Virus record (IMG/VR): IMGVR_UViG_3300009702_000042
Span: 1 to 43,392 of that record
Strand: one strand, 5' to 3'
Source: a virus
Length of the DNA stretch: 43,392 nt
Below, piece by piece: positions 3,700 to 43,392 of this stretch. The notes under the pieces were generated by a model, which saw only the letters and a program-made list of their open reading frames with translations, was not told the origin of the DNA and made no database searches. A program made the position numbers and the translations under genes. Position 1 is the first letter of the stretch. Every line of letters starts with the position of its first letter.

Positions 3700-3710
3700 C
3701 CCCCTATGTG

Positions 3711-6815: not shown

Positions 6816-6862
6816 GCGCCAATAGGCCCCCCCCCCCCCTTTAGGGGGGGGGCCATTGGCGC
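6816..6862. repeat. Long inverted repeat with C13/G9 tracts
   Basis: GCGCCAAT (6816-6823) pairs with ATTGGCGC (6855-6862), GGCC with GGCC, and a run of 13 C (6827-6839) faces a run of 9 G (6844-6852) across a TTTA loop. This gives a stem of about 21 bp with one bulged A. The homopolymer lengths may be inexact. It could extrude as a cruciform in supercoiled DNA, or the G run could fold on itself. Confidence 0.7.
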
Positions 6863-7148
6863 AACCCTCGCCCGGGAGTGCTCGTCGAGGGGGGTGCGCC
6901 AATCAGAATTTCTCGCCCCTCATCGGCGAAATCGATAATTTTCGAAAATTTTTCCGGGAGCGAAAAATCGCTATGGTGACGGTGAAATTCTCCCTACCCG
7001 GGGGCGTATCCGATGGTGATGACCCCATCAGGCCGACGGAGGCCGCGAATGCGCCGCGAAACAGGGGGACCTAGTACCCTGGATAGGGTTTTGGGAAAAA
7101 GCGCCTCAGATCGGCTCTCAGGAGGTTCGGTGTGGGTGGGATTTTGGG

Positions 7149-7257
7149 GGATGAACCACGATAATTTTCGATAATTTTTTCGTAAATTTCGGGTTTGCAA
7201 ATTTTATCGATAATTTTTCGTAAATTTTGTGTTCGCAAATTTTATCGATAATTTTAA
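7149..7257. repeat. 38-bp AT-rich tandem repeat
   Basis: Units beginning gcaaattttatcgataattt start at 7197 and 7235 (38-bp period). A degenerate unit precedes them from about 7149, and the last unit is cut short by the terminator. Each unit contains the ATCGATAAT core found elsewhere in the putative origin. Confidence 0.75.
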
Positions 7258-7293
7258 CGAAAAAAAAAACCGCCCGGAATTCTCCGAGCGGTT
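7258..7293 (-). terminator. Intrinsic terminator of the small leftward gene 7309-7590
   Basis: The outer stem AACCGC/GCGGTT (7268-7273, 7288-7293) and inner stem CGGA/TCCG are followed leftward by about ten T. It lies 16 bases after the stop codon of the gene at 7309-7590. Confidence 0.85.
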
Positions 7294-7630: not shown

Positions 7631-7659
7631 ATACTACCGGTCCGGGCGCACGTTGTCAA
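7631..7659 (-). promoter_or_regulatory. Leftward sigma70-type promoter, family member 4
   Basis: The -35 TTGACA is at 7659-7654 within GTTGACAACGT, the spacer is 17 bases and the -10 TAGTAT is at 7636-7631. GGTAG and CTACC arms enclose GTATA and overlap the -10, as in the other family members, although the arm sequence differs. Confidence 0.7.
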
Positions 7660-7713
7660 CCCTTTTCTCGAAAAAATTTTTATTTTTTGGAATATCTGAT
7701 AAGAATCAAGGGA

Positions 7714-9848: not shown

Positions 9849-10145
9849 ATGTGCGAACCTACACTGATCTTAGCAGCTGCGGTGGCAGCATCCGCAGCGA
9901 CTAGCGCTATTTCGGCGAGCAAACAGAATGACATTCAAAAGAAAGCGCTCAAGCAAGCCGAGAGGAAATCCCCGCAGCTCCAGCCGAGCAGGGCCCCGAC
10001 CGTCGCAGCCCGGGATAGCAAGTTCGGCGCCACTGGGGACAGTGGGTTCGGCTTCGGGTCGGTCGGGAATACATTGCTCACCGGGCCCCAGGGGGCGAGT
10101 CCGAACCATTCCCTGCTGGGGAGCACTTCACTCTTAGGGGGATAG
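9849..10145 (+). CDS. Small virion-type protein, 98 residues
   Basis: ATG 9849 lies one base after the terL stop and has a GGAGGTGG ribosome site inside the end of terL. The N-terminus MCEPTLILAAAVAASAATSA is an Ala-rich hydrophobic helix, followed by a basic helix and a Gly/Ser/Pro-rich C-terminus (GATGDSGFGFGSVGNTLL). Its opening resembles that of the internal virion protein at 20953-21429 (MCNPAAASLATTAAGSAASA). Such small MC-P proteins sit between terminase and portal in related podoviruses and are thought to be virion components, but the role is unproven. Confidence 0.7.
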   Translation: MCEPTLILAAAVAASAATSAISASKQNDIQKKALKQAERKSPQLQPSRAPTVAARDSKFGATGDSGFGFGSVGNTLLTGPQGASPNHSLLGSTSLLGG

Positions 10146-17567: not shown

Positions 17568-18182
17568 ATGGCGTCCGAGGTAAGTATCTGTAACCTGGCG
17601 CTCGCAAATATCGGGGACGCCGGGGTCGTCACGTCGATCTCTCCGCCCGATGGCTCTGCACAGGCCGCCAGGTGTGAGGTTTATTTTCCCCATGCGCTCC
17701 GTGTCGTGACAGAAGCGCGGGATTGGGCCTTTGCAACCCGGCGCATCGCGCTCGCGGACCTGAACAATCCTACTGGGACCTGGTTGTTCAGGTATGCGTG
17801 GCCCAATAACTGTGCCCGGGTGTTGAAGATCCTACCGCCAGGATCCACCAACGCGAGCGAACCTACGGAGGATTTCATCGTTGAAGTGGATTCATCCGTA
17901 GGGGACCGGACCATCTTGACCAATACGCCCACGGCCACTGCGGTGTACGTGGAGTATGTCACTGATCCAACACGGTTTTCGGAATCTTTCGTAACCTGTT
18001 TGGTGTCATTGTTATCGTCCTTTTTAGCGGGGCCGCTAATTAAGGGCGTCGCAGGGATCAAGGTAGGGGAGTTTTGGTATAAGCGGTATTTAATGGATCT
18101 TACCGTCGCTGGCGCGGTCGATGGATCTCAACATAAGCCCCAGGACGGGTACACTCCGGCCTCGGTGCTCGCTCGCAGATGA
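17568..18182 (+). CDS. Tail tubular protein A-like (head-to-tail adaptor)
   Basis: The protein has 204 residues from ATG 17568, with a GGGGGG ribosome site. The opening ICNLALANIGDAGVVTSISP and following AARCEVYFPHALRVVTEARD, WAFATRRIAL are the signature of T7 gp11-type tail tubular A proteins. These form the ring between portal and nozzle. The stop overlaps the next start as ATGA, showing coupling to tail tubular B. Confidence 0.88.
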   Translation: MASEVSICNLALANIGDAGVVTSISPPDGSAQAARCEVYFPHALRVVTEARDWAFATRRIALADLNNPTGTWLFRYAWPNNCARVLKILPPGSTNASEPTEDFIVEVDSSVGDRTILTNTPTATAVYVEYVTDPTRFSESFVTCLVSLLSSFLAGPLIKGVAGIKVGEFWYKRYLMDLTVAGAVDGSQHKPQDGYTPASVLARR

Positions 18183-20476
18183 CCGTCGTTCGTACATTAA
18201 CTCGGTCATTCGCTGGAGGTGAGATCACCCCGGAGCTATTCGGCAGGATAGATCTCGACAAGTTCCAGACCGGTCTGAAGCGATGCGAGAATATGATCGT
18301 TCTCCCTCATGGGCCGGTAACGAAACGGCCGGGGTTCGAGTACATTCTCCAGACGAAATACGGGCCTTTGGACCCAGACAATGCGGTCCGTTTGATCCCG
18401 TTCCAGTTCAATGTGGCGCAGTCATACGTCCTGGAGTTCGGGCACTATTACGTGCGGGTGCACACCCAGGGCGCCACGATCCTCAATCCCGCCCAAACCC
18501 TGGTGTCGATCAGTAATACCAACCCCGCAGTGGTGACCTACACGGGCGTCGACCCGGCAAATGGGGATTGGGTATATATCACCGGTGTCACAGGGATGAC
18601 GGAGATGAACGGTCGGTTCGTAAAAGTAGCCAATGTGAATACGACGGCCAAGACCTTCGTCGCGGAGGACCTCCAAACCGGGGCCATCGATGCCACGACC
18701 TGGCTTCCCGGCACGGGGGGTACCATGGCCTCCGTGTATGAACTCTCCAGCCCTTACGCCGCAAGTGATCTGGCGTTGGTCAAGTACGAACAAAACGCGG
18801 ATGTTCTGTCGCTGGCGCACCCGAACTATGCGCTACGTACACTCAGTAGGACCAGCGGGACCACGTTCGCGTTTGGTATGCCGACCACCGACCCCTCGAT
18901 CTCTCCCCCGACAGCACCCAGCGTCTCGGCTACGGGGAGCGGGGGGAGCCCATCGCAGCATACGTACTACGTCACCTCGGTGACTGCGGACGGGGAGGAA
19001 TCCCTGGCGTTACTTTGCGGATCCGCGAACCTGGATCTCGCTATCGCGGGGAATCGCATCACGGTGAGTTGGACTGCGGCAACAGGCGCCGCGTATTGTA
19101 ACGTATACAAGAAGACGGGCGGGGCCACCGGGTACATAGGGCGAGCGGCCCCCGGGGGACCGTTTGTCGATGACAATATTGATCCCGACTACACAAAGAT
19201 CTATCCAGTATCCGACCCCACGTTATCCACCGCAGGGTATTACCCCGGGGTGGTCAGCTACTACGAGCAACGGAAAATGGTAGGTGGATCCCTGAATCTG
19301 CCGAACGCCTTTTTCGCTTCCGTGCTCGGCACTGAGTACAATTTCACCAAGCGAGACGTGCCCCAGGACGATGATCGCATCAAGGTTCGCCTGGTGGCCC
19401 GCCAGGTAAACGAGATCCGGCATTTTGTCCCGGTAGCGGATCTGATTCTCCTGACCTCTGGCGGGGAATGGGCGGTGACCTCCGCCTCCGGCAGCGGGAT
19501 CACCCCGACCACCATACAGGTGAAGCCTCAGTCGTACCATGGGTGTTCTCATGTGCGTCCCGTGGTGACAGGGAATTCTGTCCTCTACGTACAGGCCAGT
19601 GGGCGAAGATTGATGACGATCGCTTACTCATACAATGTGAGAGCCTATACATCCACCGATGTGTCGCGCATGGCGCCCCACCTGTTGGACGGATGGGAGA
19701 TCATGGATCTTGCGTACACTGTGTCCCCGGACCAGATTATCTGGGTTGTTCGTAATGACGGAAAACTGTTGGGCTTAACTTTTGTTCCGGAGCAAAAAGT
19801 TCTTGCGTGGCACCAGCATTCCACGGCTGGGGGGATCGAGACTATCGCCGTTACGCAAGAGGGTGCCGAGTATGTGCTCTACGCAACGGTGTCCCGGACA
19901 ATAGGAGGGCGGCAGGTCCGTTGCCTGGAGCGGATGCGCTCCCGGTTGTTTGTCGAAGGGAAAGACTGGTACGGCGTCGATTGTGGGAAGACCTACTCCG
20001 GCGCCCCGGCCACGACGATTTCTGGGTTATGGCATCTGGAAGGTCAGGAAGTAGCTATTCTTGCGGATGGGGCGACCGTGGGGAACCAAATAGTTACCAA
20101 TGGGCAGATCAGCTTGGGGGTGCCTGCGTCCGTGGTGCACATCGGGCTGTCGTATAACGCGGCCGTGGAGACCCTTCCCCTTTCCCATGAGAAGCTGGAC
20201 GCGGGTGGGGTCGGCCAGGTAAAGAATGTCTCAAGGATCCATTTACGGGTCAATCGGTCCAGTGGTCTACTCGCCGGAGCCGATTCGGCGCACACACGAG
20301 TCTACCCACAGCGCACGACAGAGCCCTACGGGACCCCACCCAAGCTTATCTCGGGGGAGATCGAGATCCCGGTGGAGGGTACCTGGGACCCGGAAGGGGG
20401 CATGTTTATCTCGAACACAAGTACCCTGCCCCTGACGCTTACGGCCCTTTCCGCAGAGGTGGAAATCGGTGGCTAG
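18179..20476 (+). CDS. Tail tubular protein B-like (tail nozzle)
   Basis: The protein has 765 residues from ATG 18179. The N-terminal stretch TRSFAGGEITPELFGRIDLD, then FQTGLKRCENMIVLPHGPVT and KRPGFEYI, is diagnostic of podovirus nozzle proteins. A fibronectin-like segment (about residues 240-330, SPPTAPSVSATGSG and SQHTYYVTSVTADGEESLAL) is inserted, as in several relatives. RKMVGGSLNLPNAFFASVLG is another conserved block (about 360-385). The protein forms the hexameric nozzle that anchors the fibres. Confidence 0.88.
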   Translation: MTVVRTLTRSFAGGEITPELFGRIDLDKFQTGLKRCENMIVLPHGPVTKRPGFEYILQTKYGPLDPDNAVRLIPFQFNVAQSYVLEFGHYYVRVHTQGATILNPAQTLVSISNTNPAVVTYTGVDPANGDWVYITGVTGMTEMNGRFVKVANVNTTAKTFVAEDLQTGAIDATTWLPGTGGTMASVYELSSPYAASDLALVKYEQNADVLSLAHPNYALRTLSRTSGTTFAFGMPTTDPSISPPTAPSVSATGSGGSPSQHTYYVTSVTADGEESLALLCGSANLDLAIAGNRITVSWTAATGAAYCNVYKKTGGATGYIGRAAPGGPFVDDNIDPDYTKIYPVSDPTLSTAGYYPGVVSYYEQRKMVGGSLNLPNAFFASVLGTEYNFTKRDVPQDDDRIKVRLVARQVNEIRHFVPVADLILLTSGGEWAVTSASGSGITPTTIQVKPQSYHGCSHVRPVVTGNSVLYVQASGRRLMTIAYSYNVRAYTSTDVSRMAPHLLDGWEIMDLAYTVSPDQIIWVVRNDGKLLGLTFVPEQKVLAWHQHSTAGGIETIAVTQEGAEYVLYATVSRTIGGRQVRCLERMRSRLFVEGKDWYGVDCGKTYSGAPATTISGLWHLEGQEVAILADGATVGNQIVTNGQISLGVPASVVHIGLSYNAAVETLPLSHEKLDAGGVGQVKNVSRIHLRVNRSSGLLAGADSAHTRVYPQRTTEPYGTPPKLISGEIEIPVEGTWDPEGGMFISNTSTLPLTLTALSAEVEIGG

Positions 20477-21466: not shown

Positions 21467-23242
21467 ATGCCAACCGTACCCGAATATTCCCGACAAGTTA
21501 ACTCGATAACGGCGCTCAGGCCAGCGAGGGCTAATCCTTCGGATCTTGCGGCTCCAGGGCAGCAGATAGCCCGCCTCGGTGAGTCACTGGCGAAGGCGGG
21601 CGTATCCCTCGGTGATGTCTTGCAGAAAAAGCAAGAGCAAGAGAATGTCGATGCGGTAATGCAGGCGGAATCCAAGCTCAAGACGTGGGAATCCGAATAC
21701 CATTACTCGATAAGAGAACGGCGGGGCAGGAATGCCGAAGGGATCACGAAGGAAACGGTCAAGGCGTGGGATAAACAGGCCCAGGAGATCGGGGGATCTC
21801 TCCAAAACGAGGCCCAGCGGCGGGCGTTCAACCGGATCTTGTTGGAACGGCGGGCCGCGTCACTCGATTTCGTGTCCCGTCACCAGGCGGCGGAACTCCG
21901 CGAAGCTCGCATCCAGGGTGCTGAGGCTGATATCGAAGCAACTATTCAGGCGGGGATCGCCAACCCGGGCGCCGCAGGCTTGAATGAGCAGACGATCTCC
22001 CGAGTCTATCATGCCCTGGGAAAGACCGAGGGGTTGGACCCGGACTATGTAACGAACAAGATCCGGGCCGCTACCACTGCGATGCACAAGGGGGCGATCG
22101 GCGCCATGGTCGAAACCGATCCTTTGGCGGCGAAGGCCTATTACGCCGCGCACAAGGACGCCATAACCCCGGTAGAGAGAAAGTCGATCGAGGATGCCCT
22201 CCGTCGCGGAGGACTGAAAGAATTCAGCCAGAGGAAATCCGACGAATTGGTGAGCAAATACGGGGAGAACTTCGGGGCCGCGCTCGCCGACGCCCGTGCG
22301 CATATCAAGGACCCTGAACGCCGGGATGCCACGGTGGCCCGGATCAAGGCCCGGTACGCGGAATTTACGACACTCAAGAGGGACCGGGAGAAAGGCGCCT
22401 ATGAAAAGGCATTGGGGCTCGCCATCCGTGGTGAGATCGGCTCTATCGACGATATCCCGCAAGAGGTGATGACCGACCTCAACCCTACGGATCTTATGAG
22501 GATCAAATCGTATCTCGACAAGAAAGCGGAAGCTGCGATCAAGCCACCATCGGTTGACGACCCGAAGGTACTTTACGAAGCGCAGGACCTGATCGAACAA
22601 GGGGAGATCTACGACGAAAAGCAACTCCGACAGTATGATCCCTTCCTGACCAATCAGGGGAGACGGATGCTGCGAACGATGCTGGCCAAACAGAATGACA
22701 TTTCCGCAGCTGCGGTCAGGCAGGAATTCGAAACGAGGATCGGGAAGACTCGGGCCAAGTTCTTGGCGTCCGAAGAGGATCGTAAATTGTGGGAAGCGTT
22801 CCAGACGTATATCTACGACAGAATCAAGGGGCCCGCACGCCCACAAGACCTACAAACCCTTGCCGATGATTTTTTCCTGAAGGTGTATCGCCCCGGATCC
22901 GGCATCGCGGGATTCTTTCGGGACACCACGACATTGGGCGAAGCTCAGGTGTCGGGCAAGGGGCAAGAGTTCGTGGCGGAGATCCCCGAGACCGACAAAG
23001 GGCGGCTCGACCAGTCGCTCACAACGCTGAAGGGGGTTGGGGTTCAGGTGCCCGAAACCAAGACCGAAAAGGGTGCGTATTACGTACAGACCTATCTCCC
23101 CGCCGTGCGGCACCTACAGCGCATGAAGGTCGCCGTCACCGGGGATACGGTCGCGGCGTATCTAATCATGAAGGCGAACAAGATCAAGATCACTCCAGAA
23201 ACCATAGGCACTGTAGTGGAGCGTATGCACCGTGCCCAATGA
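21467..23242 (+). CDS. Internal virion/ejection protein, 591 residues
   Basis: The start is ATG 21467, with an AAGGA ribosome site. The protein is almost entirely helical and charged. A conserved-looking N-terminus (PEYSRQVNSITALRPARANP) leads to LAAPGQQIARLGESLAKAGV, then long helical repeats (EAKAYYAAHKDAIT-type units, KSIEDALRRGG). No membrane segment is visible. Length, helicity and place directly before the giant protein match T7 gp15-type proteins, which form the periplasmic part of the ejection channel. The 3' end overlaps the giant gene by 11 bases. Confidence 0.78.
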   Translation: MPTVPEYSRQVNSITALRPARANPSDLAAPGQQIARLGESLAKAGVSLGDVLQKKQEQENVDAVMQAESKLKTWESEYHYSIRERRGRNAEGITKETVKAWDKQAQEIGGSLQNEAQRRAFNRILLERRAASLDFVSRHQAAELREARIQGAEADIEATIQAGIANPGAAGLNEQTISRVYHALGKTEGLDPDYVTNKIRAATTAMHKGAIGAMVETDPLAAKAYYAAHKDAITPVERKSIEDALRRGGLKEFSQRKSDELVSKYGENFGAALADARAHIKDPERRDATVARIKARYAEFTTLKRDREKGAYEKALGLAIRGEIGSIDDIPQEVMTDLNPTDLMRIKSYLDKKAEAAIKPPSVDDPKVLYEAQDLIEQGEIYDEKQLRQYDPFLTNQGRRMLRTMLAKQNDISAAAVRQEFETRIGKTRAKFLASEEDRKLWEAFQTYIYDRIKGPARPQDLQTLADDFFLKVYRPGSGIAGFFRDTTTLGEAQVSGKGQEFVAEIPETDKGRLDQSLTTLKGVGVQVPETKTEKGAYYVQTYLPAVRHLQRMKVAVTGDTVAAYLIMKANKIKITPETIGTVVERMHRAQ

Positions 23243-26200
23243 GATAGACCTCTCCGGACTTCCCCTGGTGGGCCAGGACACCACCCTCGGGGACACGTTG
23301 ACCACGGAGCCGCGGAAGTCGACCAAGGCGCTACTCGAAGGTCTCCCCCGGGAAACGCCGGAAGTGTTGAGCCAGCAGTATCGCACGCTCAAGTCATCCC
23401 CGGCGGAAGACGCCAAGGTGGCGAACCTAAGCGAGCGGACGGGGATTCCGGATACCGTGGTGGAAAACCGGATCCGGGACGTCGAGCGTCTCGCAAACGA
23501 ACCCGACTGGAAGTCGTTCGAAAGGACCGCGCCCAAAAGCGCGGAGCTCATGGCCAAGGATCCCGTTCTGTTCCGCCTGGCCCGGGGGTCCACCGACGAG
23601 ATGTCCCGTCTTGAGCAATTGGCAAGCGAGTTCAAGGCGGGGTATTTCCAGTCGAAGGCAAGCGGCCGAGTCGCGAGCGTTGTCCAGGCCAATGAACTGG
23701 GGTATCTCGACAACGCCCCCCGCCCCCTGACCAAACCCCTCGAACTTCTCCCGATCAAGGATAATCGTCCCCGGCCCCGCCCTACGCTCGACCAGCTCGT
23801 CAAGACGTATGGGGCCCCAATTGCGGATTCGGTCCTCAGCGCGATACGCGACGGGGGCAATAGGATCTCCACCCGGTTTGCAGGGTTTGCCGACCCCAAT
23901 TACCCAGAGGTGGCGGCGTACAACCGCCTTATTGCGGAGCAAAAGATCCGGGAAGCGGGTAAGTTCCAGGCGTTGGCGAACCTTCAGTTTCAGTCCCCGG
24001 AAGTAAAGAGATTCCTCGAATCGAAGAGTCTCGGGGGAGCGCTATCCACCCTGGCGGAATCCCCAGCGACGATCACCACGGATATCATCGCGCAAAGCGG
24101 ATACCCTGTGTTGCAGTCTATCGCGGGTGCGACGGTAGGGGGGCTTCTCGGTCCGGTCGGTAGGGTCCTGGGGAGTTTCGCGACAAGTTATGACGTGAAC
24201 TACAACTCCAGGCTCACCGAGGCGCTGACCGAGGAAGGCGTGAACGTTTCGGATCCCGCAGCGGTCATGTCGGCGCTGAACAATCCGGAACTGATCGCCC
24301 GGGTGTCGTCGCGGGCCGCCAATTATGCGGGCCCCATTGCTGCGTTCGACTCTTTGGCCACAATCACTGCGGGCGTCAGGTTGTCACCGAGTGTTCTCCG
24401 TAACTCCATTGGGCAAACTGCGTCCCAGGCTCTGTTTGGAGGACTCGGTGAGGCCTCGGGGCAGATATCTGAACAAGGGAAAGTTACCAGCTGGCCCGAT
24501 GTCATCGCCGAGGGGGTGGCAGAGCTGCCTGGTGGGATCATCGAGCCCGCAGCCTATCATATCGTGGATCTTTTTCGGAACGGGGAACGGGCCGCCAACG
24601 CTCAAGTCTTCAAGGATCAGATCGATAAATTCGTGGGCCTGGCCAAGACGGGTAAGCTCAGAAACGATTCCCCGAAAAAGTTCGAGGAAGTCATCGACCG
24701 TCTTCTCCAGGATAACCCTGACGCGGATGTCTACGTCAACGCGAACGAATTCACCAAGTTCTTTCAGTCGAAGGGTGTCAACCCGATGGAGATCGCCGGG
24801 CAGCTCAGTGGGGTGGCGGCCCAGCTCCCGGAAGCGGCAGCCCGGAATGGGAATCTCAAGATCAAGGCAAGCGAACTCATCACCCGGCTGGGGCCGACCG
24901 AGTATTACTCCGGACTGAGTGAGATCCTACGCGCCCAGCCGAACGCGATGTCTGCCAAGGACGCAGCGGAGTGGCAGGCAGCCAAGCAGGAAGAATTGCA
25001 GACCCTGGTGGCGAAGCTGGATAAGGAACGGGCGAATGACACGGAGTGGAACGAATCGGCCCGCAGGGTCGAAGATTTTGTCCGAGAGCAAATTGTGGCC
25101 ACGGGCAGATTCTCCCGTGAGGTCGCGGCGAAGGATGCCGCCCTTCACGGGAAGATGGCCAAAGTCCTTGCGTCACGACTCGGAATCAAACCCCACGAAG
25201 TATATGAAAAATTTGGTCTGCGCGTAGCAGGGAGTCCCATCGCCCCCGGGGGCCTGCAATACGATCAGAATACCGGGGATCTGGTCGCCGAGAGCCCAGA
25301 GTTCCGTAGGAAATTTCAGGGATCCGTCGTGGTGAACGACAAAGGGGACCCCTTGTTGGTGCGGGGTGAGGGGGGTGTCTACACCCCGGGGGCGAGCCTT
25401 GGCGATCCTGGGGCCGCGTATCTCATGATCAAGGACCCGGCGGTCCTCGATGTAGAAACGCCCATCGAGGGAGGGGTCCCCCTTCGCTCCATTCCCCCGG
25501 CAATCACGGCCAACATCGACCCGAACGTCATCCAGGATGGGCGGGCCCCCTTGGGGGAAGTCCTCCGCGCTGCGGTGGACTCGGGGCATGACGGCCTGGT
25601 GATCCGGCAAGGCCCGGAGACGCGGTTCGTCCCGGCCCAGGGAGATCAGATCGCGCCTGCGATGAACCCTGGAGGAAGTCGTCTGTTTCAAGCGTTGAGC
25701 ACTCGAGTGCCTACTGCGGTCGCGGCGAAAGAAGATCCGTTTTCGGATTTGCTCAAGGCGGACTATGACCTGATCCTTACGGATGAGAAGACGCTCGGCA
25801 AAACCGCAGAGACACTCCGGCAGTTCAACTTCATGCGTCCGACGAAAACCAGCCTGAAGTCGGATAAGGCTGCGGTAGAACAATACATAGACCACGCAAA
25901 GAGAAATCTCCTGTTTCTATACGATCTGGTGCCCAAGGAGGTACGAGAGAGAGCAAGTCTTTGGTACGACGGCGCCCATCGTATCGCCAAGACATGGGCG
26001 GACCGGTACGGGATCTCCGAGATGCAAGCCGCTGCGGTAATTGCGGTCCTGTCCCCCCAAAAAGATTGGTTCCAGAATATAAGTTCCACGGAACGAATAG
26101 CGGATATCGCGTTCGGAATGCAGGATTTTCGATGGGACCAGGCGATGACCGAGACGGCGCGAAACATCCTTGGTGATAAATCCGACCCCAAGATGGAGTT

Positions 26201-29200
26201 GGTTGTAGGTAAAACCCTCGGGGAAGTTCTCGACCAGCCGGACCTGGCGGCACGATGGGTCCGTGTGTTCGACCAGACGCACAACGACCGTGGCTATGTC
26301 GTGACCACCCCGGAAGGGGGCGTTACGGGAGTCTCGCGTGGGAAATCTGGTGAGCCCAACACCTTGGCGTGGGGTAGCTATCAGGAGATTGGTAAAGCGA
26401 TCTCCATTCTCACGGATGGGCGGGTGGAAAACATATTCCATCAGCTTGGCTATAACCATAAGGTTCGGAACTTCTATGACAATATCTACGACCCAAACCA
26501 CCCCGCAGGGTTTGTCACTATTGACACGCATGCAGTAGCCGCGGAATTACTTCGCCCAGTCGGGGGGGATTCGCGGGAAGTAAGGTTGAATTTCGGGACC
26601 GGTAAGGGGGCGACTACGTCCTCGGTCACCGGGATCCGTGGCTTGTATCCCATCAATGCCGAGGCATACCGGAGGGCCGCCCAGGAAAGGGGGATATTGC
26701 CCCGGCAAATGCAATCGATCGTCTGGGAGGCTGCCAGAGGGCTATTTTCCTCGGCGAAGAAAAAGCACCAGTTGGCGGACGTGGATAAGATCTGGGAAAA
26801 GTACCAGAAAGGGCGGATCTCGCTCAAGGAAGCCCAGGAGCAAATAGTTCGCCAGGTAGGCCCTATCTCTCGCCCTGAGTGGGCGTCATTCCCCTTCGAC
26901 GACCAGCCCCGCCCCACCTATACGGGGATGTCTCGGGATGCCATGACCGAAATGACCGCCCCAGGCTCCGAGGCACCCCCGACCCCTAACATACTGTTCG
27001 AAGTGGCACCGGATCCGAATGACAAGGCGCTGACCGCCCGCTGGGACGCGCTGCCATTGTCCGAACGGAGCCGGATAAGTTTGCGGGTAGCAAACGAGAT
27101 CGTACCTGAAGTGCTCAAGGAATTCTCCATCACCGGAGAGGTCCAGCCTTCCCTGGGAGGGTACAACGGCGCCACGAATCCATCCTTGGCGCTCGTTACC
27201 CCCAAGTCCGCACTCACTAGCCAGCTCAGTAAGGCACTTGGGTATATCTTGGCGCAAGACAGTGTGGCGGTTGTCTCTGAGCATCCTTTCGCTGGCAGTG
27301 ATCGATTGTCCGCAGTGACCATCGAGCTTCCCGAGGGGGCAGGGGAGGCCCAGGTCGAGGCACTGTATGACCAGCTTTGGCAGCTGGTGGACGATAACGG
27401 GAACCATTTGGTCGGCGGGTACTCTGTCATGGACGATCAGATGGTGATCTTGAATTTCAGCGGGGTGGACGACGCCCAGTTCGCCCAGATGATTGACACC
27501 ACACTCCAGGGGGAGTACCGTGTCAATCTCGACCAAGTACATTCAACCCTTATAGAAAAAGAGGAATACGGTTATGGCGGTAATCGATCGCAGAGGCAAG
27601 CCTCTACCAGAAAACCATCCGTTGAAACGCGGCACCTGGATATTCTTCGGGAGAGGGCCCTACAGCTCCGGGACGAAGAAATCGCCCGGGCAGAAGCTCG
27701 AGCCGGGGGCACCTTCTACCAAGGCGGGCTCAGCCAAAAGGCAACTAACCCTCCAGGAAGCGGTGGACGAAATAAGCAAGGAACTGAGGGAGTCAGTACC
27801 CCGCCAATTCGGGAAGACGGACGGGTAGAACTGGTTCACTGGGGTCGGCTCGGAGGCTTAAACGAGCTCGACCCCGAAAAGCACGGCACCGGAATCTCCG
27901 GTGCCGAAAGCCGACGCAAAGCAAACAACCCCGGAATCTGGGTCAATCGGACCTATTACGGGATCGCGGTAGGACAGGAAGGCGGGTATCGAAAAGAGCG
28001 CACACTGGGCCCCCACCGATACGTTACCAGTATCGACCCTGGGGATCTGTACGACTTCAGGAAGGACCCGGACGGTCTGTATGACGGGGACCCGACCCGA
28101 TACGAAAGGGCGATCCACGACGCCGGGTACTCGGGGTATTGGGTAAAAGATGTCCGACTCGGTATGGTGGCGGCGGTATTCAAGCCGTTACCAATCGAGT
28201 CCTACGTCAACGAGCGGCCGGTCAGATACGGGCAAGACCCGATCGAGGCGCCGCTAACCATTCCAGACGAAGACCCTATCCTTCGGGAAACACTAGATCT
28301 CCCGGGCAGAGAAGACTTGCGGGCTCGGATACTCAATGATGTCCTGAAAGATGCCCGTCCAGTCGAGGGTCGAAAGCCTATCGCCTGGGTCATGGGCGGC
28401 GGTGGTGCTGCGGGTAAGGGAACCCTACTGGCGGCGATGAAAGCAAGCGGGGCCATCCCCTCCGAGGGAGTGGTCCATATCGATCCGGATGAAATCAAGC
28501 AAAAAATCCCGGAATATCAAGAGATTATAGCCCGTGGGGATTCACGTGCCGCCTCCGTGGTGCATGAAGAATCCAGCCTTTTGCGGAAAATGGCGGAACA
28601 AGCGACCATCGACCTCGGGGCCGACATGGTGTTGGACATCACCATGGGGAACCCCGACAAAGGCAAGGCATTGATCCGCCAGCTTAAGGACGCTGGGTAT
28701 GAGGTCCACCTGGTGGGGGCGACCGTTCCTGTAGATGTCGCAATCACAAGAGCCTCATTGCGCGGAAAGCGGACGGGACGGTACGTGAACCTGGACGCCC
28801 TGGTGCAGGCGCACCAAGGGTTCTCTGCTGGGTTCGAGGACTACGCGAAACTGGCGGACTCCGCGATTCTGTATGACAACACCGGGGAAAAACCGGCCCT
28901 GGTATTCGACAAGGGCGACGTTGTAAACCCAGTGTTGTATAATGAATTCCGTAAGAGATCGAATGGGGAGAACCCAAATGCGACCAGAAGATTACGACCT
29001 GGTGAACAAGGTAGTAGCCCGGATCAAAAAAGAGGGCCTGAAGCCAAACCGAACGCCAGCGCCGCCGATTCAACCGGAAATCTCCCGGGAACTGTTCCAG
29101 CGAGTGCTGAAGGAACAACAGGCGGAGGAGGAAGCCAACCGGTTACCCCACCCGGTAATCTTTCCGCTGGACGATTAACCCAACAGGCGCGGGGGTCCAT

Positions 29201-32200
29201 CGAATTCCCCGCCGACATCACCCAGGCCCCGAGTGTAATAAACCTACTCGAAGGGGCTGACCTCTCCACCTTCCTTCACGAGACCGGGCACTTTTTCTTC
29301 GAAGTGTACCGGGCTATCGCATCCCAGCCCGACGCCCCGGAAGTCATCGTCTCCGATATGCAGGCCCTGCTGGAGTTCATCGGGGTCAAGGATCTGGACA
29401 CCTGGAACAAAATGTCCCCCGAGCAGAGGCGCAAAGGCCACGAAAAAGTGGCCCGGGCGTTCGAAGCGTACCTATTCGAGGGCAAAGCCCCGAGTCCAGA
29501 TCTCCAGGATCTGTTTCGCACGTTCCGCCAGTGGTTGATAGAAGTCTATAAGTCCTTGATAAATCTGAACGTGAAACTGACTTCTGAAGTCAGGGGCGTG
29601 TTCTCTCGGATGCTGGCCACCGAGGAGGAGATCCGCGCGGTAGAAGCGCTTCGGCAGTATGAGCCTCTATTCGAATCCCTGGAGCAATCCGGCATGTCCC
29701 CGGGGGATTGGGCGGAGTATCAAAAAAGTCTCAGAGAAGCCACGGATGCTGCGAATGAGGAGCTGCAGACCCGCAGTCTCCGGGACATGAAATGGTTGTC
29801 CCGGGCCAAGTCCCGGGAGATCAAGCGGCTCCAGAAAGACGCGGCCGCCAAGCGAAAAGCCGTCCGGGCCGAAGCGGAGGCAGAAGTCTACGCGACACCG
29901 TTGTACGCCGCTCGTAGGTTCCTCACCCATGGTGACGTCGACCTCCCTACTCCGAATCAAAAATCCCGCAGGCTGGCGGAAGAAATCTCGCTGGGTCCGC
30001 ATAAACTATCGAAGACGGCCCTGGTGGAGATGTATGGTAACGGCCCAGCGGCCCCCTGGCGGTATCTGTCGACCGGCAAGTATGGTCTGATGGCCAAGGA
30101 AGGTCTCCACCCGAATGAATTGGCCGATCTGTTCGGGTTCGATTCCGGGGATGCCTTGGTCCGCCACCTACTGGAAGCCCCGAGCCCCGAGACCGTCATC
30201 GAAGAGCTCACCGACAAGATGATGCTCGAACGGTATGGTGACATTACCAGTCCCGAGGTGCTCGACCAGATGGCAGACGAGGCGATCCACAATGAAGCCC
30301 GGATCCGGGCCTTGAGGACCGAGCTGCGGGCGCTCGACCGGATCGTGAACGCCCGAGGGGACACTGGGCTCACCGACGCACGCGGCCGAAAGATTACATT
30401 CAACATCTTCGACAAAGCCGCCCGGGAATTCGTCGCGCGAGCTATCGGGAGAAAGAAGGTCAGGGATGCCGGTCTGACCGGAGAGTATTCGGTAGCCGAG
30501 ACCCGGGCTGGCAAGGCAGTGTTCGATGCTTTGAAGAAAGGAGACCTGGTGGCTGCTGCGGATAACAAACGGGCCCAGGTGTTGAATGCGTATTTCTTCA
30601 GAGCCGCGACCAAAGCAAAGTCCGAGATCGACCGGACCTTGAGGTATCTCAAGAAATTCGATAACCCCGGTACACGAAAGAATCTCAGTGCGGATTACCT
30701 CGATCAGATCGATCAATTGCTCGAACGGGTCGACTTGCGCAAGGCGACCCGTAAGGATGTCGAACGGCGCAAAAGTCTGGCGGAATGGATAGCGGCTCAA
30801 GAGGAAATGGGATTCACCCCCGCGATTCCCCCGGAACTCGTCGAGGAGACGAAAAAGACTCACTACACCGATCTGACGCTTGAGGAATTCCGGGGGTTAC
30901 GTGATGCGGTAAAGAGCATCGAACACCTTGGCAGGCTGAAAAAGAAACTTCTCACCGCAGCGGACAAGCGGGAATTCGATGCCGCGATCGACTCGGCCGT
31001 GGCCAGTATAGCGGAGAACGCCAAGAAGGTACGTCCACAGGAGATCGAGACCGACACACCGAAGGGGCGTCTGCGTCGTGGCGTTGAGCAATTCATCGCT
31101 ATGCACCGCAAGTTGTCGGAGATACTTCGCCAGATGGACGGCGAGAAAGACGGCGGGGAAATGTGGTCTTTGCTCATGCTCCCCTTGAACAAAGCCATGG
31201 ACCACGAAGCGGTGATGCGAGAAGAGGCCACGATCAAGGTGAACAAACTATTCACGGATCTGAAAAAACGCGGCCGCCTGTACCAAAAGGAATACATCCC
31301 CGAGATCAACGCCAGCCTGTCCAAGATGGGAAGGATCATGGTGGCGCTGAACCTCGGCAATGACACCAACCGGGCCAGGCTGACCCAAGGATATGGATGG
31401 TCTCCCAAACAGATCGAAGCGATCACCCGCCCGCTCACCAAGGAGGATTGGGACTTCGTCCAGGGGATATGGGACCTACTCGAATCCTACTGGCCTGAGA
31501 TCGTGGCAAAAGAGAAACGAGTCAGTGGTGTCGCCCCGGAGAAGGTGCAAGCCACCCCTGTAGTGACCCCGTATGGTGAATACCGGGGAGGGTATTTTCC
31601 GATCAAATACGACATCAACCAGTCCCCCAAAGCCCACCAGGACGCTACCGCAGAAGCGGCGAAACAGGCCATGCGGGGCGCCTACGCCAGAGCCACCACC
31701 AGGCGAGGGCACCTCAAGAGCCGGGTAGACGAGGTACACCGTCCGATTAAGCTATCCTTTTCTGTGATCTTCGAGCATCTTGGTCAGGTGATCCATGATC
31801 TCGCGTTGCATGAGTATCTGATCGATCAGGCCCGTATTCTGAACGATTCGAGGATGAAAGATGCAATCGTTACCCATTATGGGCCCGAGATCTACCGGCA
31901 GATCACCGACACGATGACCGCCGTGGCGGCGGGTGACGTACCGGTCACCCAGGTCCACGAGCGCGTGGCAAACTGGTTGCGGGCAGGATCTAGTATTGCA
32001 GCGATGGGATGGAAGCTCAGCACCGCTATGCTGCAACCTGTCGGCATTACTCAGTCGATCCAGCGGATCGGGGCGAAGTGGGTATTCCGTGGGGTCAAGC
32101 ATGCGCTGACCGATGCCGCCCACCTGGAGAATACCTACGCCTGGATCTCGGGGAAGTCGGACATGATGAGGCTGCGAGGGAAAACCATGCAGCGCGAGAT

Positions 32201-33023
32201 CAACGAGATCCGGAACAAGATCGAGAAGGAGGGCTGGTTCCAGGATCAATTGGACCGAGCCGCGCGGGCCCTTGGCGCGGAACACGCACCCGACATCAAG
32301 GAAAGCTATTTCTGGCTTCTCGTCAAGATGCAGCTGGTCACCGTGGACATCCCCACCTGGCTGGGCGCGTATGAAAAAGCCATGTCTGCCGGAGAAAGCG
32401 ATGCCCGTGCGGTCGCCATAGCGGACCAGGCGGTACTCGACGCCCAAGGTGGTGGGCAGATCAAGGATTTGGCGGCCGTTCAGCGGGGGAGCCCTTGGTG
32501 GAAACTATGGACCAATTTTTACAGTTTCTTCAACACTTCGTTCAATCGGTTATATAACTCCGCAGCCAGAGCCGATCTGAAACGCCCGGCATCGATCGGC
32601 AGACTTGCGGTCGATGTGTTCCTGGTGCTCACCTTGCCCTCGGCGCTGTCTACACTCCTACATGAGATGTGGCGGAATGAGTGCGACGGTGAAGACGAGT
32701 GCATCGCCAAAAAGATCGCCAAAGATCAAGTCAGCTATGCCCTCGGGATCTTCGTCGGGCTCAGGGAGATCGAGGCAGCGTTCCAACCGTATGGGTACCA
32801 GGGGCCCGCTGGGGCGAGGATCATTTCCGAGGTGTCGAACCTCGGTCGTCAGGCGGCCCAGGGTGAACTGGATGAAGCGCTTCTCCGCGCCGCAAACAAA
32901 TCGGGCGGAATCCTGTTTCATTATCCTGCCGGGCAGATCGATGCCACGGTGCGCGGGATCGAATCGATTGCCACTGGTAAGACTGATAATTTACGTGCCG
33001 TCCTATTCGGGCCCCCCAAGTGA
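23232..33023 (+). CDS. Giant polyvalent internal virion protein, 3263 residues
   Basis: The start is GTG 23232, overlapping the previous stop. From sequence I read: hydrophobic segments near residues 290-320 and 366-385; an ADP-ribosyltransferase-like domain (690-820, ending AVDSGHDGLVIRQG...); and a domain at 835-1216 with AAVIAVLSPQKDW, HKVRNFYDN and TIDTHA that resembles endonuclease III. An unknown domain follows (1250-1435, GEVQPSLGGYNGATNPSLAL). Next is a polyvalent-type domain (1530-1650, VHWGRLGGLNELDPEKHGTG). Then come a zeta-toxin kinase (Walker A GGGGAAGKGT near 1722), a zincin peptidase (HETGH at 2016-2020 and HEKVARAFEAYL near 2070), long helical parts, and a hydrophobic stretch near 3122. 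Giant multi-domain proteins in this position are known in Bcep22-like phages and are injected with the DNA. The domain set suggests host takeover or defence against host immunity. Individual domain calls vary in certainty. Confidence 0.85.
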   Translation: MPNEIDLSGLPLVGQDTTLGDTLTTEPRKSTKALLEGLPRETPEVLSQQYRTLKSSPAEDAKVANLSERTGIPDTVVENRIRDVERLANEPDWKSFERTAPKSAELMAKDPVLFRLARGSTDEMSRLEQLASEFKAGYFQSKASGRVASVVQANELGYLDNAPRPLTKPLELLPIKDNRPRPRPTLDQLVKTYGAPIADSVLSAIRDGGNRISTRFAGFADPNYPEVAAYNRLIAEQKIREAGKFQALANLQFQSPEVKRFLESKSLGGALSTLAESPATITTDIIAQSGYPVLQSIAGATVGGLLGPVGRVLGSFATSYDVNYNSRLTEALTEEGVNVSDPAAVMSALNNPELIARVSSRAANYAGPIAAFDSLATITAGVRLSPSVLRNSIGQTASQALFGGLGEASGQISEQGKVTSWPDVIAEGVAELPGGIIEPAAYHIVDLFRNGERAANAQVFKDQIDKFVGLAKTGKLRNDSPKKFEEVIDRLLQDNPDADVYVNANEFTKFFQSKGVNPMEIAGQLSGVAAQLPEAAARNGNLKIKASELITRLGPTEYYSGLSEILRAQPNAMSAKDAAEWQAAKQEELQTLVAKLDKERANDTEWNESARRVEDFVREQIVATGRFSREVAAKDAALHGKMAKVLASRLGIKPHEVYEKFGLRVAGSPIAPGGLQYDQNTGDLVAESPEFRRKFQGSVVVNDKGDPLLVRGEGGVYTPGASLGDPGAAYLMIKDPAVLDVETPIEGGVPLRSIPPAITANIDPNVIQDGRAPLGEVLRAAVDSGHDGLVIRQGPETRFVPAQGDQIAPAMNPGGSRLFQALSTRVPTAVAAKEDPFSDLLKADYDLILTDEKTLGKTAETLRQFNFMRPTKTSLKSDKAAVEQYIDHAKRNLLFLYDLVPKEVRERASLWYDGAHRIAKTWADRYGISEMQAAAVIAVLSPQKDWFQNISSTERIADIAFGMQDFRWDQAMTETARNILGDKSDPKMELVVGKTLGEVLDQPDLAARWVRVFDQTHNDRGYVVTTPEGGVTGVSRGKSGEPNTLAWGSYQEIGKAISILTDGRVENIFHQLGYNHKVRNFYDNIYDPNHPAGFVTIDTHAVAAELLRPVGGDSREVRLNFGTGKGATTSSVTGIRGLYPINAEAYRRAAQERGILPRQMQSIVWEAARGLFSSAKKKHQLADVDKIWEKYQKGRISLKEAQEQIVRQVGPISRPEWASFPFDDQPRPTYTGMSRDAMTEMTAPGSEAPPTPNILFEVAPDPNDKALTARWDALPLSERSRISLRVANEIVPEVLKEFSITGEVQPSLGGYNGATNPSLALVTPKSALTSQLSKALGYILAQDSVAVVSEHPFAGSDRLSAVTIELPEGAGEAQVEALYDQLWQLVDDNGNHLVGGYSVMDDQMVILNFSGVDDAQFAQMIDTTLQGEYRVNLDQVHSTLIEKEEYGYGGNRSQRQASTRKPSVETRHLDILRERALQLRDEEIARAEARAGGTFYQGGLSQKATNPPGSGGRNKQGTEGVSTPPIREDGRVELVHWGRLGGLNELDPEKHGTGISGAESRRKANNPGIWVNRTYYGIAVGQEGGYRKERTLGPHRYVTSIDPGDLYDFRKDPDGLYDGDPTRYERAIHDAGYSGYWVKDVRLGMVAAVFKPLPIESYVNERPVRYGQDPIEAPLTIPDEDPILRETLDLPGREDLRARILNDVLKDARPVEGRKPIAWVMGGGGAAGKGTLLAAMKASGAIPSEGVVHIDPDEIKQKIPEYQEIIARGDSRAASVVHEESSLLRKMAEQATIDLGADMVLDITMGNPDKGKALIRQLKDAGYEVHLVGATVPVDVAITRASLRGKRTGRYVNLDALVQAHQGFSAGFEDYAKLADSAILYDNTGEKPALVFDKGDVVNPVLYNEFRKRSNGENPNATRRLRPGEQGSSPDQKRGPEAKPNASAADSTGNLPGTVPASAEGTTGGGGSQPVTPPGNLSAGRLTQQARGSIEFPADITQAPSVINLLEGADLSTFLHETGHFFFEVYRAIASQPDAPEVIVSDMQALLEFIGVKDLDTWNKMSPEQRRKGHEKVARAFEAYLFEGKAPSPDLQDLFRTFRQWLIEVYKSLINLNVKLTSEVRGVFSRMLATEEEIRAVEALRQYEPLFESLEQSGMSPGDWAEYQKSLREATDAANEELQTRSLRDMKWLSRAKSREIKRLQKDAAAKRKAVRAEAEAEVYATPLYAARRFLTHGDVDLPTPNQKSRRLAEEISLGPHKLSKTALVEMYGNGPAAPWRYLSTGKYGLMAKEGLHPNELADLFGFDSGDALVRHLLEAPSPETVIEELTDKMMLERYGDITSPEVLDQMADEAIHNEARIRALRTELRALDRIVNARGDTGLTDARGRKITFNIFDKAAREFVARAIGRKKVRDAGLTGEYSVAETRAGKAVFDALKKGDLVAAADNKRAQVLNAYFFRAATKAKSEIDRTLRYLKKFDNPGTRKNLSADYLDQIDQLLERVDLRKATRKDVERRKSLAEWIAAQEEMGFTPAIPPELVEETKKTHYTDLTLEEFRGLRDAVKSIEHLGRLKKKLLTAADKREFDAAIDSAVASIAENAKKVRPQEIETDTPKGRLRRGVEQFIAMHRKLSEILRQMDGEKDGGEMWSLLMLPLNKAMDHEAVMREEATIKVNKLFTDLKKRGRLYQKEYIPEINASLSKMGRIMVALNLGNDTNRARLTQGYGWSPKQIEAITRPLTKEDWDFVQGIWDLLESYWPEIVAKEKRVSGVAPEKVQATPVVTPYGEYRGGYFPIKYDINQSPKAHQDATAEAAKQAMRGAYARATTRRGHLKSRVDEVHRPIKLSFSVIFEHLGQVIHDLALHEYLIDQARILNDSRMKDAIVTHYGPEIYRQITDTMTAVAAGDVPVTQVHERVANWLRAGSSIAAMGWKLSTAMLQPVGITQSIQRIGAKWVFRGVKHALTDAAHLENTYAWISGKSDMMRLRGKTMQREINEIRNKIEKEGWFQDQLDRAARALGAEHAPDIKESYFWLLVKMQLVTVDIPTWLGAYEKAMSAGESDARAVAIADQAVLDAQGGGQIKDLAAVQRGSPWWKLWTNFYSFFNTSFNRLYNSAARADLKRPASIGRLAVDVFLVLTLPSALSTLLHEMWRNECDGEDECIAKKIAKDQVSYALGIFVGLREIEAAFQPYGYQGPAGARIISEVSNLGRQAAQGELDEALLRAANKSGGILFHYPAGQIDATVRGIESIATGKTDNLRAVLFGPPK
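27574..27828 (+). CDS. Possible nested gene in another frame of the giant gene, 84 residues
   Basis: ATG 27574 has an AAAGAGGA site eight to nine bases upstream, all within the giant gene but out of frame. The C-terminal half (SAKRQLTLQEAVDEISKELR, then ESVPRQFGKTDG) looks like a real amphipathic helix. The giant protein frame there reads as a Gly/Asn/Pro linker. The N-terminal half is less convincing because the giant frame also looks protein-like there. It stops where the next conserved domain of the giant protein begins. Confidence 0.35.
   Translation: MAVIDRRGKPLPENHPLKRGTWIFFGRGPYSSGTKKSPGQKLEPGAPSTKAGSAKRQLTLQEAVDEISKELRESVPRQFGKTDG
28978..29178 (+). CDS. Probable nested gene in another frame of the giant gene, 66 residues
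   Basis: ATG 28978 is preceded by GGGGAG with seven bases spacing, out of frame with the giant gene. The product (MRPEDYDLVNKVVARIKKEG, then ...EISRELFQRVLKEQQAEEEA) has normal protein composition with two amphipathic helices around a Pro-rich turn. The giant frame over the same bases is a low-complexity Ser/Gly/Pro/Thr linker between its zeta-toxin and peptidase domains. That is the pattern expected when the nested frame is the constrained one. Its place directly after the zeta kinase domain makes an antitoxin-like role conceivable, but no epsilon-family similarity is evident. Confidence 0.5.
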   Translation: MRPEDYDLVNKVVARIKKEGLKPNRTPAPPIQPEISRELFQRVLKEQQAEEEANRLPHPVIFPLDD

Positions 33024-36304: not shown

Positions 36305-36334
36305 AAAAGCCCGGGGGCACTTTCGGCCCCGGGC
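36303..36334 (-). terminator. Intrinsic terminator ending the leftward operon
   Basis: GCCCGGGG/CCCCGGGC (36309-36316 with 36327-36334) is an eight-bp stem, followed leftward by six T (36308-36303). It lies between the convergent late and early operons. Rightward there is no T run, so the hairpin would at best stabilise the late mRNA end. It lies 31 bases beyond the downstream stop of the interrupted RyR frame, which supports that frame as the real gene end. Confidence 0.85.
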
Positions 36335-36364
36335 CGTGCCTGTGATGAGCCTACCCGAAGGTCA

Positions 36365-37045
36365 TCATAGGTCTTCACTTATCAATTTTACCACCGTCCA
36401 GAATATAACATCCTTGTATTGTTGTTCCGGGGGCAAATCCCGGAAGGGCATCAGACACGGGTGGGTTTTGGCTTCCGGATCCCGGGTCGCACCGTATCGC
36501 TATCCATCCTGGATTTTTTCCTCCACCCAATTGTCATGGATATCCGAGAAAGTTGCGTGAGGATGGTCCAAAAGGAACTCGACGCCATGGATGGCGGTGT
36601 CCCGTTCCCACTTCGCGGCGTGGTTCCACGGAGGCCTTTTGTCCAACGACATGATATCGTGATAATACCTAACAATTTCGTAGGCGACTTGGGCAATTTG
36701 CCTGATTTCGGTTGATGTCATCGGGGATTTCTCCGTAAGTAAATGATTCCCTGGTGGTGTTTCTACATCACGATCCCGGAAGATGCCTCGACGAGGAATC
36801 AGTTCCGGGTGGGAACTAACCCAGTCCCGTAGCGGGACCATCTCGTCTTTGGTCACATCTATCCTTCCTTCCAAAACCGCCAGTAGTTTTGCAGCTCGTC
36901 TACGACATAGGCGATGAGTGATCGCCAAATCTTGTTGGATCCGCATGGTTTCCTCGGTCATTCGTATGATTTCTTTCGTAAGTCTCACGACGTCTTCGGT
37001 AAGTAGCACGATTCCCCCAACGGGGTCCCTGTCGTAGTTACTCAT
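36365..37045 (-). pseudogene. RyR-domain protein gene with an in-frame TAG (36500-36502)
   Basis: ATG 37045 has a GGGGG ribosome site. The frame is open for 181 codons to TAG at 36502-36500, then continues another 44 codons to TGA at 36365. Residues 1-105 are helical and unknown. From about 110 a RyR domain is seen (RQIAQVAYEIVRYYHDIMSL, WNHAAKWERDTAIHGVEFLL, NWVEEKIQDG). The continuation after the TAG, RYGATRDPEAKTHPCLMPF and RDLPPEQQYKDVIFWTVV, is exactly the rest of that domain. The stop stands where the family has Trp (TGG to TAG is one base). It is either a point-mutated gene, an assembly error, or a gene using readthrough. RyR domains in phages and bacteria are proposed nucleotide-ligand sensors in conflict systems. 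It is the last gene of the leftward operon. Confidence 0.75.
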
Positions 37046-37063: not shown

Positions 37064-37216
37064 TCAATCGGCCTTACTTAGCGTTATGACTATAACGGTG
37101 ATAGCGATTACATAGACGGATAAGTATGCAATGGCTATGACTAAGCCTTTCAGTACGGTGTGCATCCAGCACTTCGATTTGCTTGTGTCTCGGAAAATAT
37201 CTCTGTCATCTCGCAC
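37064..37216 (-). CDS. Small single-pass membrane protein, 50 residues
   Basis: GTG 37216 overlaps the helicase 3' end by 11 bases and has GGAG eight bases upstream. Residues 1-18 are charged (RDDRDIFRDTSKSKCW), followed by a clean hydrophobic span (LKGLVIAIAYLSVYVIAITV, then IVITL) and a short SKAD end. The frame fills the gap between helicase and RyR gene, ending 18 bases before the next ATG. No family is recognised. Small membrane proteins in phage early operons are often superinfection-exclusion or host-modifying factors, but this is only context. Confidence 0.6.
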   Translation of the reverse strand: MRDDRDIFRDTSKSKCWMHTVLKGLVIAIAYLSVYVIAITVIVITLSKAD

Positions 37217-38606
37217 TGTATTTTCTCCGATAGTCGTTGATGGTAGTCTTTAGGTCCATCTGTTCGTCATTCTTCCTTTCCAACGCCATCAGCTGGGCTT
37301 CGTCCACGGTGTTACGGGCCAGAATCCGATGGAAAACCGGCACCTGGGTCTGCCCTTGCCTTGCCAGTCGACCAATAAGCTGCAAATACAGTCCCAGGCT
37401 CCAAGTGAGCCCGAACCACACGCCGATATGACCCCCGTGTTGGAGGTTCAGCCCATGCCCCATCGATGCCGGGTGCCCCACCAACAGGGGGATCTGCCCC
37501 GAATCCCATTTCCTCTGTATCTCGATTTCTTGTTCCGGAGTCATGGCCCCTCCCAGGTGCACCGCGCCGGGGAACCACTCCATGATCCGTTCACAGTCCG
37601 CAACAAATTCATAGGCAACCAACACCGGCTGGCCATTCGATTCGCTGATGATCTCCCCCAGTACGTTTAGCTTCGCATCGTGCAGCGCGTACCATTCCTG
37701 GCTCCCGGCTTCCTTGTAAGGCTGACCATTGGCAATCTGAAGACATTTGTTGAGCATGGATCCCTCGTTGGCCACCTCCAGCGATCCGCCAGCGTCCAAT
37801 TCGGCAAATAACTCCCTTTCCAGTTCGTCGTATACTCGGCGGACGCCTGGGGGAAGATCCACCCATACGTCGTTGAACACCGGGGTATGTTGTCCTGGGA
37901 GGTATTCGCTGGCAGTCATCGATATGGTGATGTCCGCAACATGAGATTTTATCTCGTCTTCAGCACCTTGGCGAAGGATGTGTCTATACCCATACTGTTC
38001 GAAATACTGGTCCAGGTAGTGGTTTCGATTCGTTCCCAGCCGGTCACCGCCGTCTACCACGAGATATTCTCCCCACAGATCGATATACCCATTCCCGGCT
38101 GGGGTGCCGGTCATCCCGATCCGGTACGGGAAGTAGGGGAGTATCCGCTGTAACGCCCGGGATCGGACCCCGGTGCCGTTTTTCAGCATGTCGACTTCAT
38201 CATAGACGATCGCCCGCCAAGGAAAGTACTCACCTTCCCGAAGCCAAGTAGCAATCAGGTAATCCGCCAGCCATGGGAGGTTTTCATAATTGATCAGATG
38301 CACATCAGCGTGGTTCCGGAGTGCATAGGCCCTTTGCGTTGCGTTCCCGGACACCAGGGAGAATGTCAACCCAGCGGTGTGGGTCCACCTGGCCGCCTCC
38401 TGCCTCCAGACCATTGAGCACACCCGTTTCGGGGCGACCACCAAGGTGTTCAAGCATTCCAATCGGTCTACTCGCTCCGCGATAGCCGTCAGGGCGATGA
38501 TGGTCTTTCCGAGACCGACGTCTAGCAACACCATCGATTGCGGTCGGGATAGGATCTCAGCGACTGCAGTCCTCTGATAGTCGTGAAGGTCACTCGGTGT
38601 TCTCAT
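37206..38606 (-). CDS. SNF2/DEAD-type superfamily 2 helicase
   Basis: The protein has 466 residues from ATG 38606, in an ATGA overlap with the VRR-NUC stop. Motifs: LHDYQRTAV (Q-motif-like), Walker A LLDVGLGKT near 28-36, VVAPKRVCSMVW (Ia), YDEVD near 140 (Walker B), GMTGTPAGN (III). The C-terminal lobe has PASMGHGLNLQHGGH (V) and LIGRLARQGQ (VI). Compact SNF2-type proteins of this length next to VRR-NUC and family A polymerase are a recurring phage replication module. It may remodel or unwind DNA at forks. No accessory domain is visible. Confidence 0.9.
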   Translation of the reverse strand: MRTPSDLHDYQRTAVAEILSRPQSMVLLDVGLGKTIIALTAIAERVDRLECLNTLVVAPKRVCSMVWRQEAARWTHTAGLTFSLVSGNATQRAYALRNHADVHLINYENLPWLADYLIATWLREGEYFPWRAIVYDEVDMLKNGTGVRSRALQRILPYFPYRIGMTGTPAGNGYIDLWGEYLVVDGGDRLGTNRNHYLDQYFEQYGYRHILRQGAEDEIKSHVADITISMTASEYLPGQHTPVFNDVWVDLPPGVRRVYDELERELFAELDAGGSLEVANEGSMLNKCLQIANGQPYKEAGSQEWYALHDAKLNVLGEIISESNGQPVLVAYEFVADCERIMEWFPGAVHLGGAMTPEQEIEIQRKWDSGQIPLLVGHPASMGHGLNLQHGGHIGVWFGLTWSLGLYLQLIGRLARQGQTQVPVFHRILARNTVDEAQLMALERKNDEQMDLKTTINDYRRKYSAR

Positions 38607-43085: not shown

Positions 43086-43392
43086 GGTTCACCCCCTTGT
43101 TCTATCCGATTGAGCCCCTCCATGAAATCGACGTAGAACTCGGGCGGCAGTGCGGATAGTCTATCCACACCGAACCGGGATAAGAGGTCGATTATCTTAC
43201 CCGCCTGGGGGCCCAGCACCCGGGCCACTTCAGACGCCCGGGCCCTTATTCTTTCCATCACGATCTCCTGCGCCTGGGCCTGTTCCGGGGCCTGCGCCTG
43301 GGCCTGTTCCGGGGCCTGCGCCTGGGGCTGTGCTGGTGCCTGCACTGGCGCTGGTGCCGCAGAGGCCAACAGATTCCGCATTACTTGGTCCA
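43082..43392 (-). CDS. C-terminal part of the Gln/Ala/Pro-repeat protein (split by contig ends)
   Basis: This is the 3' part of the gene starting at 628; the frame is open to the window end and matches its other half in phase. After the repeat segment the C-terminal domain reads VMERIRARASEVARVLGPQA, then GKIIDLLSRFGVDRLSALPP and FYVDFMEGLNRIEQ. It is a compact helical part of unknown function. The last 132 bases duplicate the window start with fewer repeat units. The TGA stop overlaps the DUF2800 start (TTGA). Confidence 0.8.
   Translation of the reverse strand, partial: DQVMRNLLASAAPAPVQAPAQPQAQAPEQAQAQAPEQAQAQEIVMERIRARASEVARVLGPQAGKIIDLLSRFGVDRLSALPPEFYVDFMEGLNRIEQGGEP
43261..43392. repeat. 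Terminal overlap with the window start (short minisatellite allele)
   Basis: These 132 bases equal positions 1-82 plus 215-264; that is, the start without 132 bp of repeat units. This shows the contig is circular and that the repeat array was resolved at two different lengths. Confidence 0.95.

Follow-up and report, generated by a model that had tools for sequence, protein, structure and literature searches.

Why does a phage gene encoding an RyR domain stop at an amber codon when the remainder of the domain follows directly in the same frame? The gene lies on the minus strand of the window, by which we mean the whole stretch of DNA analysed here, 43,392 bases that make up one IMG/VR virus record. 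As it stands, the reading frame encodes approximately 104 N-terminal residues followed by an RyR domain as far as its third helix. Translation of positions 36365-37045 yields 181 residues ending in HDNWVEEKIQDG, the TAG at 36502-36500, and then RYGATRDPEAKTHPCLMPFRDLPPEQQYKDVIFWTVVKLISEDL. A TGA at 36367-36365 closes the read-through frame, and a second TGA follows at 36364. The features referred to below are collected in Table 1.

Table 1. Positions in the window of the interrupted RyR gene, its neighbours and the tail gene used for comparison.
Feature	Position	Strand	Remarks
ORF as it stands	36500..37045	-	181 codons; ATG at 37045, TAG end
TAG, codon position 182	36500..36502	-	at the family-invariant GW.YG Trp (RyDEP W87)
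44 in-frame codons and TGA past the TAG	36365..36499	-	rest of the RyR domain; carries H195 (RyDEP H100), D212 (RyDEP D117) and helix alpha-4
RyR-domain module from internal ATG (M109)	36365..36721	-	possible alternative start
Intrinsic-terminator-like hairpin with T run	36314..36330	-	just 3' of the RyR gene
Small ORF, 50 aa	37064-37216	-	its GTG start overlaps the end of the helicase gene; probable transmembrane helix; next to the RyR gene on the upstream side
SNF2-type DNA helicase	37206..38606	-	upstream in the operon of the RyR gene
Tail gene	18179..20476	+	TAG end at 20474-20476; internal control

The 181-residue form returned no Pfam match, PF02026 included. Read through, the 226-residue protein scored 44.6 bits against PF02026 (RyR), above the Pfam curated cut-off of 27.4, the match across the one internal TAG having an E-value of 1.1e-11. 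Against phrog_5154 the truncated form reached 57 bits and the read-through form 129 bits. Taken alone, the 44 post-stop residues scored 70 bits (E 5e-18 at Z=1e6) against an HMM built from the corresponding segment of relatives. The continuation of the frame past the TAG is real and well above chance, which bears out the preliminary description, where these 44 codons had been read as the end of an RyR domain split by an amber codon at its conserved Trp. The domain may also have its own start. An internal ATG at 36721 is preceded by GGAG at 36734-36731, with a spacing of 9 nt, and is a possible alternative start because most phage relatives begin near there; the RyR module may originally have started at this ATG.

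Relatives of the RyR domain were found in 287 phage records. A 2026 preprint reports that phage RyR proteins degrade or sequester the Thoeris signals 2'/3'cADPR, and that some phage members bind these signals without cleaving them, acting as sponges (PMC13232231). The biochemically characterised member is RyDEP of phage DyoEdafos (gp78), in a family with glycosidase or sponge activity against Thoeris cADPR signals; it forms a four-helix pocket and dimerises through alpha-1 and alpha-4 (PMC13232231). In our alignment to RyDEP, residues H170, W173, W182, H195 and D212 of the window protein, W182 being the interrupted position, correspond to H75, W78, W87, H100 and D117. The RyDEP catalytic and ligand residues H75, W78, H100 and D117 are all present in the read-through sequence, and the equivalents of H100 and D117 fall past the TAG. 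The interrupted residue is the Trp of the GW.YG motif, and the adenine-stacking Trp (RyDEP W78, here W173) is intact upstream of the stop. The best explanation of these correspondences is that the window gene is a putative member of the phage RyR-domain (PF02026, RyDEP-type) immune-evasion family, whose intact ancestor would have had an anti-Thoeris role, as either an enzyme or a sponge. The RyDEP work also lends substance to the earlier suggestion of a link to nucleotide immune signals and of a possible sponge. PADLOC defence-gene models gave no match to the RyR protein.

Modelled in its read-through form, the protein has four helices in the RyR domain, with a pLDDT of ~97 across the domain. 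Helices 111-132, 145-160 and 166-179 precede the TAG and helix 206-225 follows it, while a long N-terminal helix is predicted with moderate confidence. The truncated 181-residue product retains the helices ahead of the stop, together with H170, the catalytic His, and W173, the adenine-stacking Trp. Missing from it are helix alpha-4 and both the phosphate-binding His and the catalytic Asp, and loss of function is therefore expected. With these parts gone, the truncated product should not fold properly, dimerise or bind ligand. It could instead be functional, either through its N-terminal helical extension or as a half-domain, and in favour of this a good Shine-Dalgarno sequence (AGGGGG) stands ahead of the 181-codon ORF and the N-terminal helix is itself predicted. 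Nevertheless, we consider a functional short form very unlikely: no relative of the N-terminal 104 residues could be detected in phages, truncation costs the four-helix pocket its fourth helix and two ligand residues (PMC13232231), and no other RyR frame was found to end at codon 182.

Comparison with relatives places the stop at a nearly invariant position. Codon 182 encodes Trp in 84 of 84 aligned relatives, which had been fetched with a pattern that itself demanded Trp at this position. When the codon was left free and only the flanking motifs were required, 118 distinct sequences gave 117 W, one F and no stop. A tight RyR pattern carrying TGG at codon 182 was matched at least 120 times in viral contigs; the same pattern carrying TAG, or carrying TAA or TGA, was matched in none of ~2.9 million viral contigs, and an exact DNA pattern detected no TAG at codon 182 of an RyR frame in 85,000 genomes. 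All of these stop-codon scans used exact patterns, so that divergent relatives fall outside their scope, and records very close to the window may be absent from the collections; within that reach the stop is private to the window sequence. The position is almost always W in relatives, in agreement with the conserved Trp of the preliminary description.

Several further candidates for interrupted RyR genes were considered. A looser TAG pattern produced one viral and four genome matches, which are chance matches without an RyR reading frame around them. In Arthrobacter phage Lewando the RyR match touches two annotated genes; it simply starts ahead of the annotated start of gene 74, and a split gene was rejected. 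An apparent internal TAG at another locus is probably the natural end of its ORF, which the profile match would overrun. The RyR gene of a different viral contig (L085, at about 310-640) has a frameshift just before the catalytic Asp motif (KD) and carries on in another frame past it. This gene is probably an independent breakage in the family, one further case among the loci examined, and is subject to the same ambiguity between mutation and error.

That ambiguity defines the main rival to a genuine mutation, in which the phage really carries TGG, the TAG results from an assembly or consensus error or from DNA damage, and the gene is an intact, ordinary RyR immune-evasion gene. Such an error would require a single G-to-A transition in the coding strand (C to T in the plus strand) in a record that is a single virus contig, and would account for the absence of a stop at codon 182 from every relative found and for the lack of decay beyond it. 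On the other hand, the other conserved genes of the contig are unbroken when compared with two relatives, which indicates that the contig is not generally error-rich, and substitution errors are in our judgement rare in well-covered short-read assemblies. An error is for us the less probable account, yet one that carries real weight.

The state of the sequence past the stop bears on the age of the mutation. All 13 near-invariant positions past the TAG are kept. In simulations of unconstrained decay, the probability of keeping all 13 without acquiring a new stop was ~0.5 at 2% divergence, 0.2 at 5% and 0.03 at 10%. Given the low odds of survival at 10% neutral divergence, the stop should be young. 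More strictly, one of three statements holds: the stop is young, the downstream sequence is still under selection, or the stop is not real. Selection that continued through readthrough would also keep the remainder intact, and this counts against a recent loss of function.

Readthrough or suppression, in which UAG is decoded in some translations owing to an amber-suppressing host or to natural leakiness, would yield both truncated and full-length RyR proteins. Consistent with this, the 44 post-stop codons are intact, H195 and D212 included, the C-terminal part has diverged from the family no more than the N-terminal part, and coding bias per codon is alike past the stop (0.104) and ahead of it (0.111). 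The same intactness is equally explained by a young mutation, however, and the signs of a regulated event are missing. RNA folding past the TAG is no stronger than that of shuffled sequence (z-score +0.26), with no stem-loop, and the phage has no tRNA gene. Under programmed readthrough a conserved stop with selection beyond it would be expected; by exact patterns no relative has the stop, which argues against such an event.

The use of TAG elsewhere in the phage points the same way. The last residue of the homologous tail proteins of two relatives coincides with the TAG of the tail gene at 20474-20476. Because these proteins end where the TAG of this phage lies, the standard code applies. A TAG also stands at 10143-10145, and TAG terminates three of ~38 predicted genes, the interrupted RyR gene included. 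With TAG in use as a terminator and no tRNA in the phage, the data do not support reassignment of the codon, and the earlier statement that there is no whole-genome recoding stands. We regard occasional decoding of the amber codon as improbable. A narrower version, which we hold to be very unlikely, is that the natural host suppresses amber, so that the phage would produce its RyDEP-type sponge or enzyme at a low level or solely in suppressing hosts, as a host-gated counter-defence. The proposal that readthrough switches the protein on or off was not upheld, given the lack of the stop in relatives, of structure past the TAG and of a phage tRNA, together with the TAG that ends the tail gene.

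The reading that we favour, with moderate confidence, is a recent and private loss-of-function stop in an accessory anti-Thoeris gene. The ancestor would have been an intact RyDEP-type immune-evasion gene fused to a helical N-terminal extension, inactivated by a single stop in place of the invariant Trp of GW.YG. The mutation would be recent, or merely segregating in the population, because everything past the stop is still intact. Of the options raised by the preliminary description, recent breakage is the one that best agrees with a private stop and an intact downstream remainder. The best explanation calls for no new mechanism: an ordinary stop, real or miscalled, in a known kind of immune-evasion gene.

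The setting of the gene is compatible with an accessory role. It is the last gene of a minus-strand replication operon that encodes, upstream of it, a PD-(D/E)XK exonuclease, an Enc34-type SSB, a family A DNA polymerase, an endonuclease, the SNF2 helicase and a small possible membrane protein, and the end of an operon, here against a terminator-like hairpin, is a usual place for accessory genes. The portal protein of the phage is 57-58% identical to those of Limnohabitans phage DC33, Bordetella phage BPP-1 and uncultured freshwater podoviruses. PF02026 had no match in two structural relatives, DC33 and the closest uncultured relative, MW202722, which is consistent with an optional gene and leaves no syntenic intact copy for comparison. 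No close relative of the RyR protein or of the helicase was found among viral contigs, megablast of 20-43 kb against phages gave no match, and the searches yielded no close relative of the phage with an intact sibling allele.

Other parts of the window show features of their own. The last 85 bases (43308-43392) are identical to positions 180-264, inside a gene of 12-base PAQ repeats, and a minus-strand ORF at the right end remains open in the same frame when joined to the left end, even though no end repeat had been flagged. The identity and the continuity of the ORF across the ends suggest that the genome is probably complete, circular or circularly permuted, and broken in the repeat. Positions 6190-7260 contain no predicted gene, adjoin the primase/helicase gene and hold 14 of the 15 copies of ATTGGCGC that the window carries (1.6 expected), as well as 13 copies of AATTATCGA (0.4 expected); by its repeats this region looks like a replication-origin iteron region. 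Four copies of GGGTTGACAACGT occur at 2630-2661, 3196-3227, 3671-3702 and 7650-7662. Three of them are promoter-like minus-strand sites with a 17-base spacer, two being identical over the whole promoter, and the copies may represent a repeated promoter cassette. Positions 23232-33023 encode a 3263-residue polyvalent protein with LPD22, DUF7178 and Zeta-toxin-type (residues 1707-1877) domains, which is perhaps injected along with the DNA.

If the mutation is real, the window carries a naturally occurring null allele in a recently described class of Thoeris-evasion genes. This would indicate that environmental phages lose genes of this class, presumably where they do not meet the matching defence, and the truncated form would serve as a ready-made control in tests of which part of the RyR domain is required.

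The best solved-structure matches, by sequence and fold, are the putative ryanodine receptor of Bacteroides thetaiotaomicron (PDB 3NRT, 6UAG) and animal RyR Repeat12. Both are cellular proteins, and in animals the domain occurs as a tandem repeat within a calcium channel. Among phages, the sponge-type RyDEP homologues of PMC13232231 are homologue 4, from a Ruegeria phage, and homologue 7, from a Pectobacterium phage. As stand-ins, which may not be the exact phages tested, we compared Ruegeria phage vB_RpoP-V12 and Pectobacterium phage vB_PatP_CB4. Their RyR proteins share the RyR core with its GW.YG, HP and KD motifs at 32-35% identity and, unlike the window gene, are uninterrupted. RyDEP of Mycobacterium phage DyoEdafos (MN234187.1) has the PF02026 domain in common with the window protein, and the catalytic and binding residues of the two align without gaps, with 48% identity over residues 170-215. 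DyoEdafos gp78 contains no internal stop, whereas the window gene is interrupted by its TAG. The DyoEdafos gene lies between phosphoribosyl pyrophosphate transferase and nicotinate ribosyltransferase genes of NAD synthesis, while the window gene has an N-terminal extension and is placed after replication genes.
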